DNA of 48,075 nucleotides from a virus. Positions within the stretch are counted from its first letter, which is position 1; each line of letters opens with the position of its first letter. The position numbers and the translations under genes are program-made. Under the pieces are notes generated by a model. It saw only the letters and a program-made list of their open reading frames with translations, was not told the DNA's origin and ran no database searches. Location of the stretch: the IMG/VR virus record IMGVR_UViG_3300024429_000014, positions 1 to 48,075 of that record; one strand, given 5' to 3'. This document shows, piece by piece, positions 8,749-28,501 of the stretch.

Positions 8749-9729
8749 TTATGGGACCAATGAGACATAATGTTCAAGCGTCTCATTTACCCTTGCAACC
8801 AACTCCTGCTCCTCAATATTCACATAAAATTTTGCTGTGGTGTCAATCGAGGCATGACGCAGTAGCGTCTGTAGCTCTTTAAGACTGTAACCCTTCTCAA
8901 TCAAGTTGCCCGCGAAAGTTCTCCGTAGATCGTGGAAGCTCTTTGACTTTATCGCAGCACGCTTAAGTAATGCCCTGAAGTCTCTGTTGAAGTTTCCCCA
9001 GGGACAGAGAGCTTTGCGAAAATACAGATTGCCTTGGCGTTTCCGCTCAAGCAACATTGGGTAGTAATTAGGTCTGACGCAAACGTAGGGCTGATTCGCC
9101 GGCAACGTTGAGATGAGTTTGGCAACTATCTTGTGAACCGGGATCACAATATCCGGCAACACAAGGCATTCAGGCAACGGTGCGTAGGCAGCCTTGCGAT
9201 TCTTTATTCGCCAGGCCCACGTTGTCGGCGAGTCCTTTTTCGGCCTTATCAAGATATAGCCCTTATCGAAGTACAGATCGTCACGAACCAAATTCAAGGC
9301 CTCGCCCTCACGCAAGCCGAGCAAGCCCAAAGTTACCAGAACTCTCCATCGCAGATCGGCACAATTATATATCCTGACAATTTCGTCGTCGGAAAAAACG
9401 GGCATCTTTTTATCTTCGGCCTTGAGCAGTCTTAATCCAAAGAATGGATTCTGATCGATGTATCTCCGTTTTACGGCCCAATTAAAAAACGTGTGCATGT
9501 GGACAGTGTGAAGATTGACTGTCTTTGGCGACCTTCGTTTCTTGTCGCCCCGCAGTAAGACACATTGATAATCTTCGCCATGACCATAAGTTACACTATC
9601 CACCGGCACGTCTCCAAAGGCCTTGATAAAGTACATAGCTGCTCTCTGTTTGCTGTCAATCGTCGATGCGGCATAATCGCCGCTTTTGATATGGATTTTG
9701 ATTAAATCCGAAATAACCGGCTGTCCCAT
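8749..9729 (-). CDS. int: Tyrosine-type integrase
   Basis: 326 residues. The N-terminal SAM-like core-binding domain covers about 5-110; the catalytic domain has the first Arg in LLGLREGEALNL, the H-x-x-R box in FHDLRRTFA, a His in LLRHASIDTTAKFY and the nucleophile Tyr in that last segment. All five expected residues are present, so it is probably active in integrating the phage. The ATG at 9729 has GGAGG six bases upstream and a good promoter (9772-9800). This gene is the main evidence that the phage is temperate. Confidence 0.95.
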   Translation of the reverse strand: MGQPVISDLIKIHIKSGDYAASTIDSKQRAAMYFIKAFGDVPVDSVTYGHGEDYQCVLLRGDKKRRSPKTVNLHTVHMHTFFNWAVKRRYIDQNPFFGLRLLKAEDKKMPVFSDDEIVRIYNCADLRWRVLVTLGLLGLREGEALNLVRDDLYFDKGYILIRPKKDSPTTWAWRIKNRKAAYAPLPECLVLPDIVIPVHKIVAKLISTLPANQPYVCVRPNYYPMLLERKRQGNLYFRKALCPWGNFNRDFRALLKRAAIKSKSFHDLRRTFAGNLIEKGYSLKELQTLLRHASIDTTAKFYVNIEEQELVARVNETLEHYVSLVP

Positions 9730-21219: not shown

Positions 21220-21698
21220 TATTCCACCTTTGCGTAACTTATACAATCAACCTTATCAGGCGTTAACTTCCTGGCTATACCTTCGATCTTAAAACCTAAG
21301 TGCCTCAATAATGTATGAGCCTCAGGTACACCGATTCGCGCGTGAGCTTCGAGTCTGTGCAGATTATTGTCTTTTATCAACTTACCCAAACCATCTTTTA
21401 TAACTTCGTAAGCGCCCATTGGATATTTATCGACTTCGTAAGATAGCATTAACCATACCTCCGCTACACCCGGCCATTTCCAATCTATTCCGCCGCAACC
21501 TACTATATTGTCTTTTACAACGCCTGTAATACACTTGCCATTAGCTTCTCTTGTCTTTGCCAGTTCCTGCAAATTATCATCGCCATAAGCCTTTAATCCA
21601 AATTCTTTAATACCATTTTCGATAACCCAAATCATATCTTCGGCACGGAAAGATCGTATCCCTGTAAATAAATTTATTTTTTCCTTTACAGTTTCCAT
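21219..21698 (-). CDS. GNAT-like protein (T7 gp13 position)
   Basis: 159 residues with a GNAT fold: an N-terminal FRAEDMIWVIENGI, the strand pair ITGVVKDNIVGCGGI and VAEVWLMLSYEV, and the end AHTLLRHLGFKIEG. Phage proteins of this kind (gp13 of T7-like phages) act in virion assembly and probably lack acetyltransferase activity. No ribosome site precedes the ATG; TTGAAC-N17-TGGAAT lies just upstream on the minus strand and overlaps the promoter of the divergent 77-residue gene. Confidence 0.8.
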   Translation of the reverse strand: METVKEKINLFTGIRSFRAEDMIWVIENGIKEFGLKAYGDDNLQELAKTREANGKCITGVVKDNIVGCGGIDWKWPGVAEVWLMLSYEVDKYPMGAYEVIKDGLGKLIKDNNLHRLEAHARIGVPEAHTLLRHLGFKIEGIARKLTPDKVDCISYAKVE

Positions 21699-21713
21699 TT
21701 TTTATGCTAAATT
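21685..21713 (+). promoter_or_regulatory. Promoter of the 77-residue plus-strand gene
   Basis: TTTACA, 17 bases, TAAATT with a TGC just before the -10 (extended -10). The ATG is six bases after it, with no ribosome site. Confidence 0.5.
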
Positions 21714-21719
21714 CCAAAT

Positions 21720-21953
21720 ATGATAAAATTTAAGTTCAAAAAATGGTGGTATAATTTAATACCAAAGTATCGCAAATGGTTGAGAGATTGTGAAAAAGTC
21801 ATAAATTCACCCGAAGTCCAAAAGGACATTGAAAACCAACATCGCGAAGCAATGTACAATTTTGCAGTATTCGGACAACATCCTCGACCACCCAAAAAAG
21901 CTATTGGGCAATTTCTCAATAAAGACATTAAAGACATTTTTGAAGTCTCCTAA
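21720..21953 (+). CDS. Plus-strand cargo gene in the tail cluster (1)
   Basis: 77 residues, basic and rich in Trp and Lys at the start (FKFKKWWYNLIPKYRKWLR), then a helical middle and a Pro-rich KKAIGQF box. Not recognised. It lies between the nozzle C-terminal piece and the GNAT gene, opposite to all neighbours; its stop overlaps the convergent stop at 21950 by 4 nt. It has its own promoter and seems leaderless, so it is probably expressed separately from the virion genes. Confidence 0.65.
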   Translation: MIKFKFKKWWYNLIPKYRKWLRDCEKVINSPEVQKDIENQHREAMYNFAVFGQHPRPPKKAIGQFLNKDIKDIFEVS

Positions 21954-22603
21954 TCCGCATTTGCATTAACGTCCAAATTAAACGACAATATCGTCATAGG
22001 CAAAGGTTGGGTCTGCTGTGCCAATATATCGCCAGACCTTGAATAGCCGTCCTTAAGTGGTATCTCTTTGTAGCCTGTAAATAGAGCAGCAGTTCCAGTT
22101 GGAATATCCTGCATGGTGCTCGTACTACCTCCTACCTCTCCGCCTATCGTTTCAAAGACATTAAATACACCCCTGTTTATTTTCTTGGTAACGGTTAATC
22201 CCATACCTTGTAAATCTAATTTCATAGGCTTGACAATAGATGTATACGTCATGCCAACCATTGGATTAGTCAATGAAGTTACAGGGGCTGTAATAGAACC
22301 ATTGGAAACTATCTCCGTACTTATAACTATTCCTTGCTGCATTACCGACACGGATTTACCTTCTAAATGCTCTAAGCCGGTAATGGTAGCACTTCCAGCA
22401 ACTACAGACTGAACTACGTAACCCTCTGATACGGTCTCTGTAAACTGAACATAATCAGAACCGGCACTTTCAATAGCTAATTTGAAAGAATCTGTATCTT
22501 CATCGGCTGTGTAGTAAAAAGCATCCAGCCACGATACATAAACGTAAGTATTACTTGCTGTTGCATAACCATGGTTAGGGATGTAAATGACCAAATCCGC
22601 CAT
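21950..22603 (-). CDS. Tail nozzle protein, C-terminal piece (gp12-like, split)
   Basis: 217 residues. From about residue 74 it matches the C-terminal part of T7 gp12-type nozzle proteins: ITGLEHLEGKSVSVM, VGMTYTSIVKPMKL, KKINRGVFNVFET, and a closing SGDILAQQTQPLPMTILSF. That part normally follows directly after the middle domain of the same protein, which here is a separate gene ending at 23279. The first 70 residues (IPNHGYATASNTYVYVS) resemble insert domains also present in the other half. It has its own ATG with AAGGAA. Confidence 0.8.
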   Translation of the reverse strand: MADLVIYIPNHGYATASNTYVYVSWLDAFYYTADEDTDSFKLAIESAGSDYVQFTETVSEGYVVQSVVAGSATITGLEHLEGKSVSVMQQGIVISTEIVSNGSITAPVTSLTNPMVGMTYTSIVKPMKLDLQGMGLTVTKKINRGVFNVFETIGGEVGGSTSTMQDIPTGTAALFTGYKEIPLKDGYSRSGDILAQQTQPLPMTILSFNLDVNANAD

Positions 22604-22646
22604 CGTTAAATTCCTTAGATTTTATTCATTTTCTGGCATTTTAATC

Positions 22647-22673
22647 TTGACAGCCATTATTTCTTACTATATT
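22647..22673 (+). promoter_or_regulatory. Promoter of the 59-residue plus-strand gene
   Basis: TTGACA, 15 bases, TATATT; ATG eight bases later without a ribosome site. The spacing is shorter than ideal. Confidence 0.5.
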
Positions 22674-22681
22674 TTTGTGTT

Positions 22682-22861
22682 ATGAAAAAATATTTATACG
22701 GTTATAACATTTCAGGCGAACAAGTAATTTCGGCGGATATTACAGATTGGCCGAAAGATAGTATTGAAAATCTTAAAGCCGAAATACAAAGAGGCCCTAT
22801 CGGTAGAAAATTGGGCGAAATCAATTTTACAGAAACTGCTGAGCATAATACATCTCCTTAA
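22682..22861 (+). CDS. Plus-strand cargo gene in the tail cluster (2)
   Basis: 59 residues: a beta hairpin (KYLYGYNISGEQVISADIT) then a helix with LKAEIQRGPIGRKLGEI. Not recognised. It lies inside the split nozzle locus, reads against its neighbours and ends one base before the stop of the fibre-tip gene. Its own promoter and leaderless start resemble those of the other plus-strand genes. Confidence 0.6.
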   Translation: MKKYLYGYNISGEQVISADITDWPKDSIENLKAEIQRGPIGRKLGEINFTETAEHNTSP

Positions 22862-22862
22862 T

Positions 22863-23261
22863 TTAATATCCCCATGCCTGCCAATGAATACTCGTAAAAC
22901 CCGGATTGTTAGGTTGAAAAAAAACAAGCGCTGATGTTGTCGCCGTTTTAAGATATGGTGGAAATTTTTGTAAAGCATCGTTTTTAAACCCAGTGCCTGA
23001 AGCGCTTATAATAGCAGTTTCAAAAGCAGTACCAAATGTAACAGTGGCGCCTGTTCCGCTTTGGGCCACGACGCCATGTTTAAAAACTAAACCGTTAGGA
23101 AAAGTGACACTTTCTTCTCCAGCATATGTTGTTGGCGACCATTCCATATCCGTAAGCATCTGGGTCTTTTTGTGTGTACCATCGGCGTCGTGTCCAACGT
23201 CAATGTTAGCTTTCATTTTTGTATTCCAGTCTGTAACACCGTTACTTGGCCATTCTGCCAT
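22863..23261 (-). CDS. Short tail-fibre protein (gp53-like C-terminus)
   Basis: 132 residues. The end resembles the receptor-binding tip of gp53-type tail fibres: FPNGLVFKHGVV, a strand with VTFGTAF, and the closing FTSIHWQAWGY. The start (WPSNGVTDWNTKMKANIDVGHDADGTH) looks like a short attachment segment. It probably binds to the tail end as a small fibre. AAAGGAG lies before the ATG; it sits between the two pieces of the nozzle gene. Confidence 0.75.
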   Translation of the reverse strand: MAEWPSNGVTDWNTKMKANIDVGHDADGTHKKTQMLTDMEWSPTTYAGEESVTFPNGLVFKHGVVAQSGTGATVTFGTAFETAIISASGTGFKNDALQKFPPYLKTATTSALVFFQPNNPGFTSIHWQAWGY

Positions 23262-23278
23262 AATAAATCTCCTTTTAA

Positions 23279-25780
23279 TTAAGCGGCTACTCCGCCAGCT
23301 AATCCATTATTGCAAGACCCATCGTTGCATCTCACTGTATCAGATGCGTTATTTACATTATTTTGGGTATACGCAAGGTCGGAAAGTTTCGCACCATCCA
23401 AAAATACAAAGTCGCCCATATAAGTAAATTTCTGACTTGTAAATCTTTCTACATACCTCACTATTTCATTGTTTATAGTTCTCTTTACCGTAACCCACAC
23501 TTCATCTTCGCTATTAACTCCACCGTAAACTATAGCTACAGACTCAAATAAACCGTCTGTTACTACCCTCGCCCAACTAAATACGTTCTGGTCTCTCTCA
23601 TAAGTCATTATAGCCATTACGCCGTCATTTCTGACGCACCACAACATCGGGTCAGGAGTTCTCTGAAATGCCATATCAACTATTCCTGATTTGGTGATGT
23701 GTTCTGCAAATACCGTTAAGTCATCAGCTTTATGGGCATCGGCTTCATAGTTATATAAAAATTCCCTTATCTTCCTGCCGCCTCGCTGCACGAATAGTAT
23801 CGCCTGATTGACTATTAAAGCTCTTATATTTTCAGATCCGTAAGTAGTTTGTAGTTTAGCTTGAACATTGGTCGGAGTAAGAGCTTCACTATCTTTGGAT
23901 GCGCCAAGTAAATGTTCACCACCGACCGTACCTAAAACCACAGATGCTTTCGGTACAGACCATTGTATTTCATTCTGCTGACCAGAACCCACTAAAGAAA
24001 ATGTAATTGGATCACTATCGTCTGTGCCTCTTAAATAATTAATCCAATCCCCAATCTCCGAACCCCAGACATTCAGAGGTTCAGACGAGTTGCCTGCAAA
24101 AATAAGTCTGTCCTCTGGCGACATCGTAACAGACTTAGGCCAACCTCTGTAATTACTCCAAGCTCCTTCAGCCCATGCTGAAGTAGCGGTTGTAGCATCA
24201 ACAGCCGCCTTGACTATACCAGTAGCTACAGTTACACTGGTGTAACCAGTTATTTCAACTATTCCATGATTTTTTATACTTCTGGAATAGAACTTAACCT
24301 CACAATTTTCCCCATCATCACCAGTATCATACAAAACAAGTCTATAATCGGCTTCCTGTATTTCCTCTGTCTCTGACGCTGATATATTTTTATTGTCTGC
24401 ACTAATTGCAATATGAACAACTTCCCAGCCAGCAGCATCATGAGCAGCACCTAAAGTCTCGTTTCTTTCTAATTTCAAAGTACCAGTCCAAGTTTCTAAA
24501 GTTGTTAAATCCCATTTCTGGTTCTTTTTGAGTCGAAGAGGGCCGGCCCAACTTGTGTTTTCTACAACGCTTTGTCCGCCACCAGTTCCGTATTCATTAG
24601 TCAAGGTTTGTATCACAGAACCGCCTGTTACTGTTTGGATAATATCAAACAATGCGCCCGTATGGGCTTTTTCTACGACTTCAGTAACTTCGCCGGTAGC
24701 ATCATTAGCTACATAATCCATTAAGATATAAAAAGTATCAGCGGCTACTTTTGTTATATTCCATTGTCCATCATAACTTGTTGTTCCTGTTATTTGTACA
24801 ATATCAGCCGTACTCAATAAGTGCGCCGCAGATGTAGTAACCAAAGTAGACGTACCAAAAGTGTGAGAAGCAAATGCACTTATTGAAATCGTTGGACTAC
24901 TTGCCTTATGCCCTGCCGTTACACCATCTACAAATAAAGCCTTTGAAGACGTTAAAGTCGTTGCGCCACCTAAAGTTAAAGTTCCTGAAGGCGTTATTGT
25001 CCATGCGGTATCTACGTTCTGGTCTCTGAACGGGCCGGTACGGTAATCTGTAACTTCAAAAGTCCAGTTTGTATCTCCCGTTCTTGATAGTTTTCTCGGC
25101 TCGTAATCATCGTGTGTGATATACATAACATCAGCAGAATGTTCTACTTTCAAATCAGGTATGTCAGCAGTCAGATACGGCGTGATTATCTCATAAACTG
25201 TAGCAACAGAGTCGTCATCATCGGCAGTGTAAGCCGTAGGAAAATCTGTGGCGCCAGCAGTCCCATCTAATGAAAATGTAGTAGCGGTAATAACAGTTAT
25301 AGTGTATTCAGTTGCATGATTGCCATTGTAATTGGCTTCTGTAGGCCCCACAAGACCATCAAATCTAACTACATCACCGGTAGAGTACCCGTGGTCTGCG
25401 GCAGTCGTAACAACAGATACACCGGCAGGCTTCGTAAAGCCACTCACATTTACACTGGTATTCATTACTCTATTACCAGACTTGAATACCCTAATCTTTT
25501 GGTTCTCGAAACATAATGTGTAAACATTAGATATCGACCTCTCAAATGCTACCATTCTGCCTTTAGCAGTATCGTCGCCAGGTGCGTTTTGTGCCGTAGC
25601 TGACTGAGTGGCAATATATTCTAATCCAGGTCGTCTTTGCGCCCCACCGTAAACTAATGGAAAGAAGTTCTCCATTATCCGACAACCAGCAACATGTTTT
25701 TGCTGGTCGCTTCTGTCGGCCATCAATCCTGATAATTCGCCGGCACCAAAGGACTGAATTATTTTATGTGTTTTTGGCAT
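23279..25780 (-). CDS. Tail nozzle protein, main piece (gp12-like, lacks the C-terminus)
   Basis: 833 residues from the ATG at 25780, which overlaps the upstream stop (TAATG). The start is typical of T7 gp12/tail tubular B proteins (IIQSFGAGELSGLMADRSD, then CRIMENFFPLVYGGAQRRPG), and the middle has the usual IFAGNSSEPLNVWGSEIGDW and VPKASVVLGTVGGEHLLG boxes. It stops shortly after RYVERFTSQKF...GDFVFLDG, where complete family members go on with a GLDHLEGK-type domain; that part is the separate gene 21950-22603. It has extra domains (about 105-420). Confidence 0.85.
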   Translation of the reverse strand: MPKTHKIIQSFGAGELSGLMADRSDQQKHVAGCRIMENFFPLVYGGAQRRPGLEYIATQSATAQNAPGDDTAKGRMVAFERSISNVYTLCFENQKIRVFKSGNRVMNTSVNVSGFTKPAGVSVVTTAADHGYSTGDVVRFDGLVGPTEANYNGNHATEYTITVITATTFSLDGTAGATDFPTAYTADDDDSVATVYEIITPYLTADIPDLKVEHSADVMYITHDDYEPRKLSRTGDTNWTFEVTDYRTGPFRDQNVDTAWTITPSGTLTLGGATTLTSSKALFVDGVTAGHKASSPTISISAFASHTFGTSTLVTTSAAHLLSTADIVQITGTTSYDGQWNITKVAADTFYILMDYVANDATGEVTEVVEKAHTGALFDIIQTVTGGSVIQTLTNEYGTGGGQSVVENTSWAGPLRLKKNQKWDLTTLETWTGTLKLERNETLGAAHDAAGWEVVHIAISADNKNISASETEEIQEADYRLVLYDTGDDGENCEVKFYSRSIKNHGIVEITGYTSVTVATGIVKAAVDATTATSAWAEGAWSNYRGWPKSVTMSPEDRLIFAGNSSEPLNVWGSEIGDWINYLRGTDDSDPITFSLVGSGQQNEIQWSVPKASVVLGTVGGEHLLGASKDSEALTPTNVQAKLQTTYGSENIRALIVNQAILFVQRGGRKIREFLYNYEADAHKADDLTVFAEHITKSGIVDMAFQRTPDPMLWCVRNDGVMAIMTYERDQNVFSWARVVTDGLFESVAIVYGGVNSEDEVWVTVKRTINNEIVRYVERFTSQKFTYMGDFVFLDGAKLSDLAYTQNNVNNASDTVRCNDGSCNNGLAGGVAA

Positions 25781-26343
25781 TAGAATAATCCGTAAAAACA
25801 TGCTGCCAAAGTAGCTGGGTTAGTAACTGGTAGTGTTATTTCCATTTTCCAGTATCGATAACCGCAAGTGTCCATCCAAAGTTTTGATATACTATTCCCG
25901 CCCGTTGCAGTAGCTTCTATTTCTTTCATCCAGTATTCGTTGGTAATTACAATATTATCACACCAAAAAGCTGTTGCAGTAGTAACTCCGTGCGGATATG
26001 TAATTACCGCCTGTGTTCCTGTCTCAGCCGTTCCATCAGCTACTATCTCGGCAGGGCCATTTCCGTTTCGCCATGCAAGTAATCGCCAGTCTATATTCTT
26101 ACTGTGAGCGGCAGTGGCAGCGAAAATAAAACAGATACCATTAACTTTCGATTCCGGAAGCAAGGGAACATCTACAGGAGATATAATGTCTTTCTTAAAC
26201 AAATCAAGTACATCGCTCGGTAACTGCGCGAAGTCTCCCTCTGTAGTAAGGTCTATCGGTGTATCTGCACCAGCCAAACCTCTGGCTACAAAATACGGGT
26301 ACGAAAGTGTTGTCAGATAATTATTCAAACTCCATACCTCCAC
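25780..26343 (-). CDS. Tail-cluster protein, unknown function
   Basis: 187 residues, beta-rich (VNGICFIFAATAAHSKNIDW, ALLAWRNG region, YWKMEITLPV). No signal peptide. GAGGTGGAGGT precedes the ATG. Similar proteins occur beside the nozzle gene in podoviruses with unknown function; it could be a tail appendage or chaperone. Confidence 0.7.
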   Translation of the reverse strand: MEVWSLNNYLTTLSYPYFVARGLAGADTPIDLTTEGDFAQLPSDVLDLFKKDIISPVDVPLLPESKVNGICFIFAATAAHSKNIDWRLLAWRNGNGPAEIVADGTAETGTQAVITYPHGVTTATAFWCDNIVITNEYWMKEIEATATGGNSISKLWMDTCGYRYWKMEITLPVTNPATLAACFYGLF

Positions 26344-27299
26344 CTCGTCTGTTCGTATAAATCTCTAATATTCGCAGTAGTTCGGACTAAACTATAAAGT
26401 CTTACATCTGATATTGCTCCGTCAAAATAGCTTGTTGTCGGCGGGATGATTTCTTTAACACTTACTTCGTCCAGGATAACATCAGTAGTCTGTACACCAT
26501 CACTTAGCACCTGGACAGTGAGCGCGTTAGTATTGGTCGCTGTTACATCCCATGAATTAGCACCCTGCGACGCTTCGTTGCCTACCCCGCCGAGAAACAC
26601 GACGACAGCACCGTCTGTAACTGTCAGATTATCAAATTCGGTGGTTACTCTATACTTGTGTGTAGCAATAATATTGGTAATCATTGTGGCTGACAAAATA
26701 TCATTACCGCCGTACCCGACTTGGGTATGATTCGCAGCGTTCGCCTGTGCAACTGAATCCTCCCAGAAATTTCCATAAGTCCAGCCGCCGCCGCTTTCAA
26801 GAAGAGTTGCGTTCTCGACTTTCTCACTACCCAAATCCGCCGTCGCCCGTGCTATACTAAGACCGGAGGCGTTCCTTGCCGTTGTACTTGTAATCCCTAT
26901 TAAATGCCAGTTAGCTGTTATAGCGGTTGCCACTGCACCATCGACATATAGAACATTCGTACCACCAGAAAAGCCGCCCTTGGTAAGTACACCATTAACG
27001 ATAGATAAAAAATTAAGATTCAAATCTATCGGATAATCGGTTACGTTGATGGCATTAGGCTTGACCCATAAAGTGACTGTCTTAACACTCGTCGGGCCGG
27101 TGCCAATATCTATATACTGAGTATTGGCGGCAATGAAATCAAAACCAGGAGGCGATGAAACCGGAGTACCAGTACTACCGGATAGAGTTCCGGTGTAACC
27201 ACCAAAAGGATAATCAAATATAGTTCCTTCCCATAATTTCAGATGCAGGACTTCTGAGGCGTCCGAAACCTCTGGCGGATGTAAACGTCTTTTATCCAT
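26325..27299 (-). CDS. LamG-like tail protein
   Basis: 324 residues. The ends form a concanavalin/LamG-like fold (LWEGTIFDYPFGGYTGTLSG, then TVTLWVKPNAI, NWHLIGITSTT, and FDGAISDVRLYSLVRTTANI at the end), split by an extra beta domain (about 155-280, with a CBM-like ITNIIATHKYRVTTEFDNL). It probably binds sugars and is part of the tail or its appendages. GGAG precedes the ATG. It is the second LamG protein of this phage (the other is at 14186). Confidence 0.75.
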   Translation of the reverse strand: MDKRRLHPPEVSDASEVLHLKLWEGTIFDYPFGGYTGTLSGSTGTPVSSPPGFDFIAANTQYIDIGTGPTSVKTVTLWVKPNAINVTDYPIDLNLNFLSIVNGVLTKGGFSGGTNVLYVDGAVATAITANWHLIGITSTTARNASGLSIARATADLGSEKVENATLLESGGGWTYGNFWEDSVAQANAANHTQVGYGGNDILSATMITNIIATHKYRVTTEFDNLTVTDGAVVVFLGGVGNEASQGANSWDVTATNTNALTVQVLSDGVQTTDVILDEVSVKEIIPPTTSYFDGAISDVRLYSLVRTTANIRDLYEQTRWRYGV

Positions 27300-27300
27300 T

Positions 27301-27678
27301 CTAAACTCCTCTAAGAGTTACGGCAACTGTTGCAGTTGCCTGCGGATCATCAAAGGCTAATACTACATTCACTTCATGCGCAAGCGGTTCGCTAACACTG
27401 TAGATATATGTATCACTCTCAGCCAAGTCAGTTACAGACCAAATCGTATTGTCGCCGTTGTCAGTCAAAGATACGTCCGTAGTACCTTCTGCATTTGCCA
27501 TATCAGTCAAAGTAACAATTATTTTCTGCAACAATCCATTTACAACAACAACCGCGGTTCCTGTTGTGTCGCCACTTATCAAAGAGAATGTCGTTATTTT
27601 TTCCCAAACAGGATGCCTTTCCAATGTATCCGTACGTCTATCGTACGAAGCCACAACTCCCGTACTTACTGTTGGCAT
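27301..27678 (-). CDS. Small beta-rich structural protein
   Basis: 125 residues, almost entirely beta strands rich in Val and Thr (TGTAVVVVNGLLQKIIVTLTD, ending TATVAVTLRG). Position between the gp11-like adaptor and the LamG protein suggests a minor virion or decoration protein. AAGGAG precedes the ATG. Confidence 0.7.
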   Translation of the reverse strand: MPTVSTGVVASYDRRTDTLERHPVWEKITTFSLISGDTTGTAVVVVNGLLQKIIVTLTDMANAEGTTDVSLTDNGDNTIWSVTDLAESDTYIYSVSEPLAHEVNVVLAFDDPQATATVAVTLRGV

Positions 27679-27688
27679 AATAAACTCC

Positions 27689-28501
27689 TTATTCTATCGT
27701 TTGTCTTGTATGTCCGGCAGCAATCCAGCTATCGCTGAACTCCTGGACATATTTTTCCCTGTTATCCATACCAATTGCTCTTGGTAAAATTATTTCTTCA
27801 TATTCTCGCAACAGTCTGTCTCCCAACGCGCTGTTCTGAACCAAATCATAAGCCAGATCAGCGGCAAGTTTCAATCTAAGCGCATTTACAAAATGGGCGG
27901 GAAAGTTTGCAACATCAAGAGTAGCACTGGTGTGAGAAAAAATATAATCCATATCAACTTCAGTATCTTCCTGGTTGGTAAGTATCCAATCGCCTTTTCT
28001 TACCCAGTCGGTCAATTCCACGCCGCCAACTTTGACTGAAGTTACCCTTGTGCAGGTAGGACGTGCAAAACGAGCCAAATACTTTTCAGAAGTCCAGTAT
28101 GCTGTTCCGGTATCCGTAGCCGTAAAAACAGCGTCTATAGCAAAAGACACAGTTGTCAATACCGAATTAACATCATAGTCACCATCAATATTAGTATCGT
28201 CAAGTAACACCCTATCACCAGCGATAAGAGTATGAGTCCCAGTTACAGTAGTTGTAGAACCCGTTACCAAATCAGCCAGCGCCGTTATCGTTATGGAATC
28301 TCTGTCGATACCGTGAAAAGTCCTGTTAGCAAATTGCCAACCCTTTTCAGGGCCGCTGTCAAGAATATCTTCAAGAGTCAAATCCCAAATAGCATTGACC
28401 TTATCTGCCGTGGCCGTACCGTCAGTATCAACGTCAGTAAAGATAGCCTCACCGACTTTGAGCATCGCCCAGTTGGCAATTGAAGTTTTTGACGTTGCGA
28501 T
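27689..28501 (-). CDS. gp11-like tail adaptor (tail tubular A), non-ATG start
   Basis: 270 residues if translation starts at ATC (28499-28501) as proposed. A perfect AGGAGG (28507-28512) lies five bases before this codon, while the first ATG in frame (28465) has no ribosome site and would remove 12 residues (ATSKTSIANWA and neighbours) that belong to the usual N-terminus of this family. The C-terminal helix with LRLKLAADLAYDLVQNSALGDRL is typical of tail tubular A proteins, which join portal and nozzle. Two beta insert domains lie between (about 60-130). ATT at 28504 is an alternative start. Confidence 0.8.
   Translation of the reverse strand: MATSKTSIANWAMLKVGEAIFTDVDTDGTATADKVNAIWDLTLEDILDSGPEKGWQFANRTFHGIDRDSITITALADLVTGSTTTVTGTHTLIAGDRVLLDDTNIDGDYDVNSVLTTVSFAIDAVFTATDTGTAYWTSEKYLARFARPTCTRVTSVKVGGVELTDWVRKGDWILTNQEDTEVDMDYIFSHTSATLDVANFPAHFVNALRLKLAADLAYDLVQNSALGDRLLREYEEIILPRAIGMDNREKYVQEFSDSWIAAGHTRQTIE

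Follow-up and report, generated by a model that had tools for sequence, protein, structure and literature searches.

The nozzle locus and its two chains

The window analyzed here is a 48,075-bp IMG/VR virus record (IMGVR_UViG_3300024429_000014), taken in full, and its source is probably a temperate short-tailed phage. The nozzle of such phages closes the DNA channel and is normally one protein. In the window, the parts of a nozzle are encoded by two genes on the minus strand, and a gene for a short fibre lies between them. We refer to the two products as the N chain (833 amino acids, aa) and the C chain (217 aa). The features of the locus are listed below (ORF, open reading frame).

27689-28465, minus strand: gp11-type adaptor (PHROG 394 tail protein), upstream of the nozzle genes
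23279-25780, minus strand: nozzle N chain, 833 aa; N-terminal platform strands, propeller core, then a 39-residue tail
23282-23398, minus strand: C-terminal tail of the N chain, residues 795-833, common to the split loci
~23291-23347, minus strand: tail motif ASDTVRCNDGSCNNGLAGG, residues 812-830; three pentads, key residues at 0, +5, and +10
22863-23261, minus strand: short fibre, 132 aa, gp53-like (PF21882, E 6e-7)
22682-22861, plus strand: ORF of 59 aa, between the fibre gene and the nozzle C gene
21950-22603, minus strand: nozzle C chain, 217 aa; own start, TAAGGA ribosome site
22400-22603, minus strand: HGY (FCCH-type) domain, C-chain residues 1-68, from the alignment
21953-22399, minus strand: platform domain, C-chain residues 69-217, from VIA-align matches to nozzle platforms

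The nozzle gene lies where the family has it, downstream of the adaptor gene on the same strand, with other ORFs in between. An earlier in-frame ATG would lengthen the 833-aa ORF to 840 aa. A first-pass annotation of this DNA had described a gp12-type nozzle gene divided in two, and both ORFs were found where it had placed them. The N and C genes are 675 bp apart (0.7 kb in that annotation), a Shine-Dalgarno-like TAAGGA precedes the ATG of the 217-aa gene, and the insert consists of the gp53-like fibre gene and the 59-aa plus-strand ORF, as had been proposed.

We compared both chains with PHROG 376 (712 positions). The N chain covers positions 1-548 (E 8e-135) and the C chain positions 525-710 (E 4e-23); jointly they span 1-710. 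In a sequence comparison with the solved nozzle of phage Carin-1 (PDB 8CK1), the N chain matches residues 10-580 and the C chain residues 670-820. Aligned to full nozzles, the 833-aa protein is not full length, and the 217-aa protein is related to the gp12-type family.

The AlphaFold2 model of the N chain has a pLDDT (predicted local distance difference test) of 77.5, with low confidence at the first residues and in the tail, and matches 8CK1 with a Z score of 35.5 and T7 gp12 with 22.9. The model of the C chain has a pLDDT of 85.6. In VIA-align, its residues ~68-217 matched the nozzle platforms of LME-1 (Z 9.6) and 8CK1 (Z 8.0), as well as residues 611-790 of T7 gp12 (6R21; Z 8.0), and the top eleven rows were nozzle proteins only. 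Together, the predicted models contain the propeller core and the C-terminal platform fold of a nozzle; the single polypeptide of a gp12-type nozzle is replaced by two ORFs.

From the profile matches and predicted folds, the 833-aa protein is a gp12-type nozzle protein without the C-terminal platform, and the 217-aa protein is a platform together with an HGY domain. The first-pass annotation had the 833-aa gene stop exactly where the family continues. It does lack the platform, but it adds a C-terminal extension of its own, the 39-residue tail. Likewise, the identification of the 217-aa protein with the family's C-terminal domain applies to the part that contains GLEHLEG, but an extra domain precedes that part.

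Recurrence and history of the split

The order nozzle N, fibre, nozzle C was found in 15 IMG/VR contigs of uncultured short-tailed phages besides the window; this count leaves out L138, a near-copy. Where measured, the N chains of the other split contigs are ~31-53% identical to that of the window. The 833-aa chain alone as query returned no close relatives in viral_contigs. The fibre as query led to L082, L083, and L084, which have the same order, and a profile built from four N chains brought in further contigs, among them L102 and L107. The 15 IMG/VR matches to a DNA pattern for the shared N-chain end were all nozzle-N tails or a mini-gene in contig L101 (described below), and L172 and L176 came from a scan with the HGY domain. 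In L139 and L106, the N chain is followed by a fibre or spike and then by the end of the contig. Every split locus with enough downstream sequence retains the C chain.

A similar picture could arise from an ordinary nozzle gene through an assembly error, a frameshift, or a self-splicing intron. The window is a metagenomic contig, and one relative (L038) looks frame-broken. However, 15 other contigs have the same arrangement, the inserted gene has a start of its own, and the stop of the N chain follows a conserved tail; a search of 21900-25900 for a self-splicing intron gave no Rfam match at E up to 1. For practical purposes, an artefact of this kind is refuted.

Most of the contigs found through the C chain are unsplit, so the split appears from these sequences to be a minority state in the nozzle family. 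The 217-aa query fetched 80 contigs, and 76 of them have both nozzle parts in a single ORF. Among the remaining four, L038 is broken elsewhere (overlapping frames), L044 is a fragment, and in L079 and L080 the C match is below threshold. A single nozzle coding sequence was present in all ten cultured or reference phage records checked (HTVC028P, HTVC010P, vir555, ct8d5349, AF, MZH0603, BPP-1, Carin1, YA3, and LS06-2018-MD07). No description of a split nozzle turned up in the literature searched, a scope without most subscription journals. The split is real and conserved and is more than a broken gene.

The N core and the platform give concordant phylogenies. Both place the window with L082, L102, L103, and L104 in clade I and the remaining sequences in clade II. 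Two relatives with a continuous junction, L108 (a single intact ORF) and L112 (broken further upstream), fall inside clade II in both trees. They have the same platform type as the split members among which they are nested, but their junction lacks the tail, the fibre gene, and the HGY domain. A phylogeny with all split loci constrained to a single clade was rejected (p 3e-112), since L103/L104, L108, and L112 fall among these loci. With those sequences included, a single clade was compatible (p 0.50), and clade II without L108 and L112 was marginal (p 0.036). The history may be that of one old split lineage with later losses, or of repeated gains.

The elements at the junction are mosaic with respect to the nozzle. 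The mean identity of the N core is 37% between the clades versus 64 and 56 within them, and that of the platform is 30 versus 47 and 50. For the tail (54 between, 52 and 59 within) and the HGY domain (48 between, 54 and 47 within) there is no drop between the clades, and these two have therefore either been exchanged separately from the nozzle or are under a constraint independent of it.

The C chain might instead have a role outside the nozzle, such as that of a fibre chaperone, with the N chain alone forming the nozzle. Platform-type domains do occur on separate proteins in L103 and L104, the sisters of the window group, whose N chain ends one strand earlier (..RYIEYFSTRSF in L103). Each of these loci has the platform domain twice, on separate proteins (L103:7070-9558, L104:7603-9761). 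However, it is through the platform that the T7 nozzle meets the adaptor, the N and platform trees agree, and the C chain is retained in every split locus that extends far enough, all of which make a separate role quite improbable. A nozzle of two polypeptides, which the first-pass annotation had raised, is favored by the recurrence of the split, the congruent N and C trees, and the predicted platform fold of the C chain. Between its first strand and the platform, the larger platform protein of L103 and L104 contains a DUF5122 propeller-like stretch (just under the Pfam cut-off) or a GLUG-type one; perhaps a receptor-binding surface domain is carried here on the platform chain itself.

The tail, the fibre, and the HGY domain

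The N chains of the split loci share the ending ASDTVRΦxxGxΦxSxxΦGG, in which Φ at 0, +5, and +10 marks three pentads; the Tyr form reads YGSGS-YGSGL-YGG. In 15 of 18 tails, the Φ triplet is all Cys, all Tyr, or all Phe, against a column-shuffle mean of 4.3, a comparison that ignores relatedness and for which the search pattern had already set several tail residues. Three spaced, alike residues, as in the nozzle of phage SU10, are thus a property of the set of tails; the window itself has C, C, and A. The pLDDT of the tail is below 50 in the N chain modelled alone. In L106, the N chain has a different tail (L106:7100-7692, ..AQDIGFVSYEPIWNEGDMDDGVWH) and is directly followed by an apparent beta-helix tailspike with a WGT-type anchor, a possible alternative mount.

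The tail pattern had 15 matches in 257 Gb of bacterial and archaeal (GTDB) genomes, all apparently unrelated. These loci had no nozzle, fibre, or platform match, and the printed translated matches were in unrelated frames; they therefore name no host and serve as a negative control. The tail peptide, the HGY protein of L101, and the window fibre had no match in 50,697 phage records, a search in which short low-complexity queries may be missed.

The window fibre has a conserved N-terminal anchor (MAEWPSNGVTDWNTKM..GHDADGTHK) and a gp53-like C-terminal domain. In the split loci, a fibre-like gene starts at or within ~20 nt of the stop of the N chain, and the fibre is the first gene after the N chain in 15 of 16 loci; in L130, an endonuclease VII gene comes first. 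The N-terminal anchor is of two types, WPxNGxxDWNT or GTWGTEL-like, and the C-terminal part is variable. The start of the C chain often overlaps the preceding stop (TAATG), which is consistent with coupled translation.

The type of tail follows the type of anchor. In 15 of 16 loci (Fisher 0.0014), a Cys tail is paired with a WPxNG..DWNT anchor, or an aromatic tail with the second anchor type. L172 and L176, which were seen after the rule was set, both obey it (17 of 18), and on the N-core tree three independent contrasts agree with it and none disagrees. As a pattern among sequences, this association supports docking of the fibre on the tail without proving it.

The HGY domain is a distant relative of FCCH domains that some unsplit nozzles have at the corresponding place (hhalign probability 87%, E 4e-6). 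It sits between propeller and platform, at the position of the T7 fibre dock, a small jelly roll that binds the fibre; the fold comparison covered C-chain residues ~70-217. No similarity was detected between the HGY domain and the fibre. In L101, an 11.9-kb contig of an unrelated phage, three consecutive genes upstream of the terminase encode a tail peptide of 34 residues, a fibre whose anchor is the same, and an HGY protein of 92 aa; this contig also has a match to an SU10-type portal just under the Pfam cut-off. The three parts thus co-occur with no nozzle gene next to them, the nozzle of L101 being outside the contig stretch examined.

A simpler account would have the two-chain nozzle tolerate an insertion: the fibre gene would be there because the interdomain loop permits it, tail and HGY domain would help the chains to fit, and the fibre would attach elsewhere. 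Other genes do occur at the same place, namely the endonuclease VII gene of L130, a ~75-aa gene in several loci, and the plus-strand ORF of the window. However, the position of the fibre directly after the N chain in all but one locus, the tracking of anchor type by tail type, and the joint occurrence of the three elements in L101 count against this account, which we regard as unlikely, though the most serious of the competitors. That the split serves to hold the fibre, the second suggestion of the first-pass annotation, is supported by the association of tail and anchor types and by the place of the break, which is that of the dock in T7.

Proposed assembly of the nozzle and mounting of the fibre

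The chain of T7 gp12 runs from propeller through fibre dock to platform, the first 45 residues provide three platform strands, and the platform meets the adaptor (PMC6702177). Given this order, the dock is where the window has its break, and the C-chain platform should still be completed by strands of the N chain. Phage SU10 uses three Trp of a nozzle loop, one per fibre subunit, to dock the fibre trimer (PMC9509320).

We think it likely that the two chains reassemble as one nozzle subunit and that the tail and the HGY domain mount a trimeric fibre at the position of the T7 dock. The nozzle would be made from two co-translated polypeptides, the N chain supplying the propeller core and the C chain the platform that meets the gp11-type adaptor. 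The chains would rejoin non-covalently, with the N-terminal strands of the N chain completing the platform barrel as in T7. The three-pentad tail may then dock the fibre trimer with one Φ per fibre subunit, as the three Trp of SU10 do, and the HGY domain would complete the dock. Concerted changes among Cys, Tyr, and Phe would fit three identical pockets, and tail, fibre, and HGY domain together would form an exchangeable fibre-mounting cassette.

The general form of this proposal has, in our judgment, slightly less than an even chance of being right: a mobile cassette of dock peptide, trimeric fibre, and HGY domain inserts at the nozzle dock of podophages and yields a two-chain nozzle, and the three-repeat peptide reads three identical fibre subunits, so that its key residues change in concert with exchange of the anchor.

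Several observations weigh against the reassembled nozzle with a docked fibre. Both chains are known here solely as genes and predicted models. L108 and L112 lie within a split clade, and the split is therefore not required. L102 is an exception to the tail/anchor rule, the tail and anchor classes were defined after the first 16 loci had been viewed, and three tree contrasts are too few to reach significance. Since the tail and the fibre gene adjoin, linkage alone could produce the association. The HGY domain is a candidate dock domain by its position, the fold comparison having spanned C-chain residues ~70-217.

Compared with known nozzles, the closest likeness is to that of Carin-1 (gp36, PHROG 376), in sequence, in the predicted fold of both chains, and in gene order after the adaptor; however, Carin-1 has one chain, whereas the window has two with a fibre gene between them. 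T7 gp12 shares the predicted propeller and platform folds, but it is one chain and has no detectable tail motif, and the HGY domain is equated with its dock by position, not by fold. With the SU10 nozzle gp17 and its short tail fibre gp16, the proposed likeness is that three spaced residues meet three fibre chains. In SU10 these are Trp in a propeller loop of a single-chain nozzle, whereas here they are Cys, Tyr, or Phe in a C-terminal tail with a spacing of 5.

The nozzle is one chain in the solved and cultured relatives checked, and the two-chain lineage shows where this machine can be cut and rejoined. The tail is a candidate, at the level of sequence, for the means by which a six-fold nozzle holds a probably trimeric fibre, and the concerted Cys/Tyr/Phe changes make this matching problem testable with short peptides. 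Annotators should note that a truncated nozzle and a "hypothetical tail protein" encoded close by can work as a pair.

The endonuclease VII family gene of L130 (L130:9889-10802; PF02945, E 2.7e-23), between nozzle N and fibre, is possibly a homing-type element. The ~75-aa gene (MIKIG..VxLTxxEF..DG..) lies between fibre and nozzle C in L082, L084, L129, L135, L136, L141, and L176; it had no PHROG match and perhaps encodes an assembly helper. Plus-strand ORFs of 59 aa (22682-22861) and 77 aa (21720-21953) flank the nozzle-C gene of the window and had no convincing family match. A sigma-70-like promoter ends 6 nt before the ATG of each (22647-22675 and 21685-21713, respectively), which would make leaderless messages, as with moron genes; promoter-like sites number 11 versus 6.4 in shuffled sequence, a small excess.

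Besides the nozzle locus, the window encodes a terminase, a head-tail connector, a capsid protein, and the following:

8749-9729: integrase

Three minus-strand ORFs (125, 324, and 187 aa) lie between adaptor and nozzle (25780-27678). The 324-aa ORF has a weak Laminin-G likeness, and several split loci have a relative of the 187-aa protein ahead of the nozzle.

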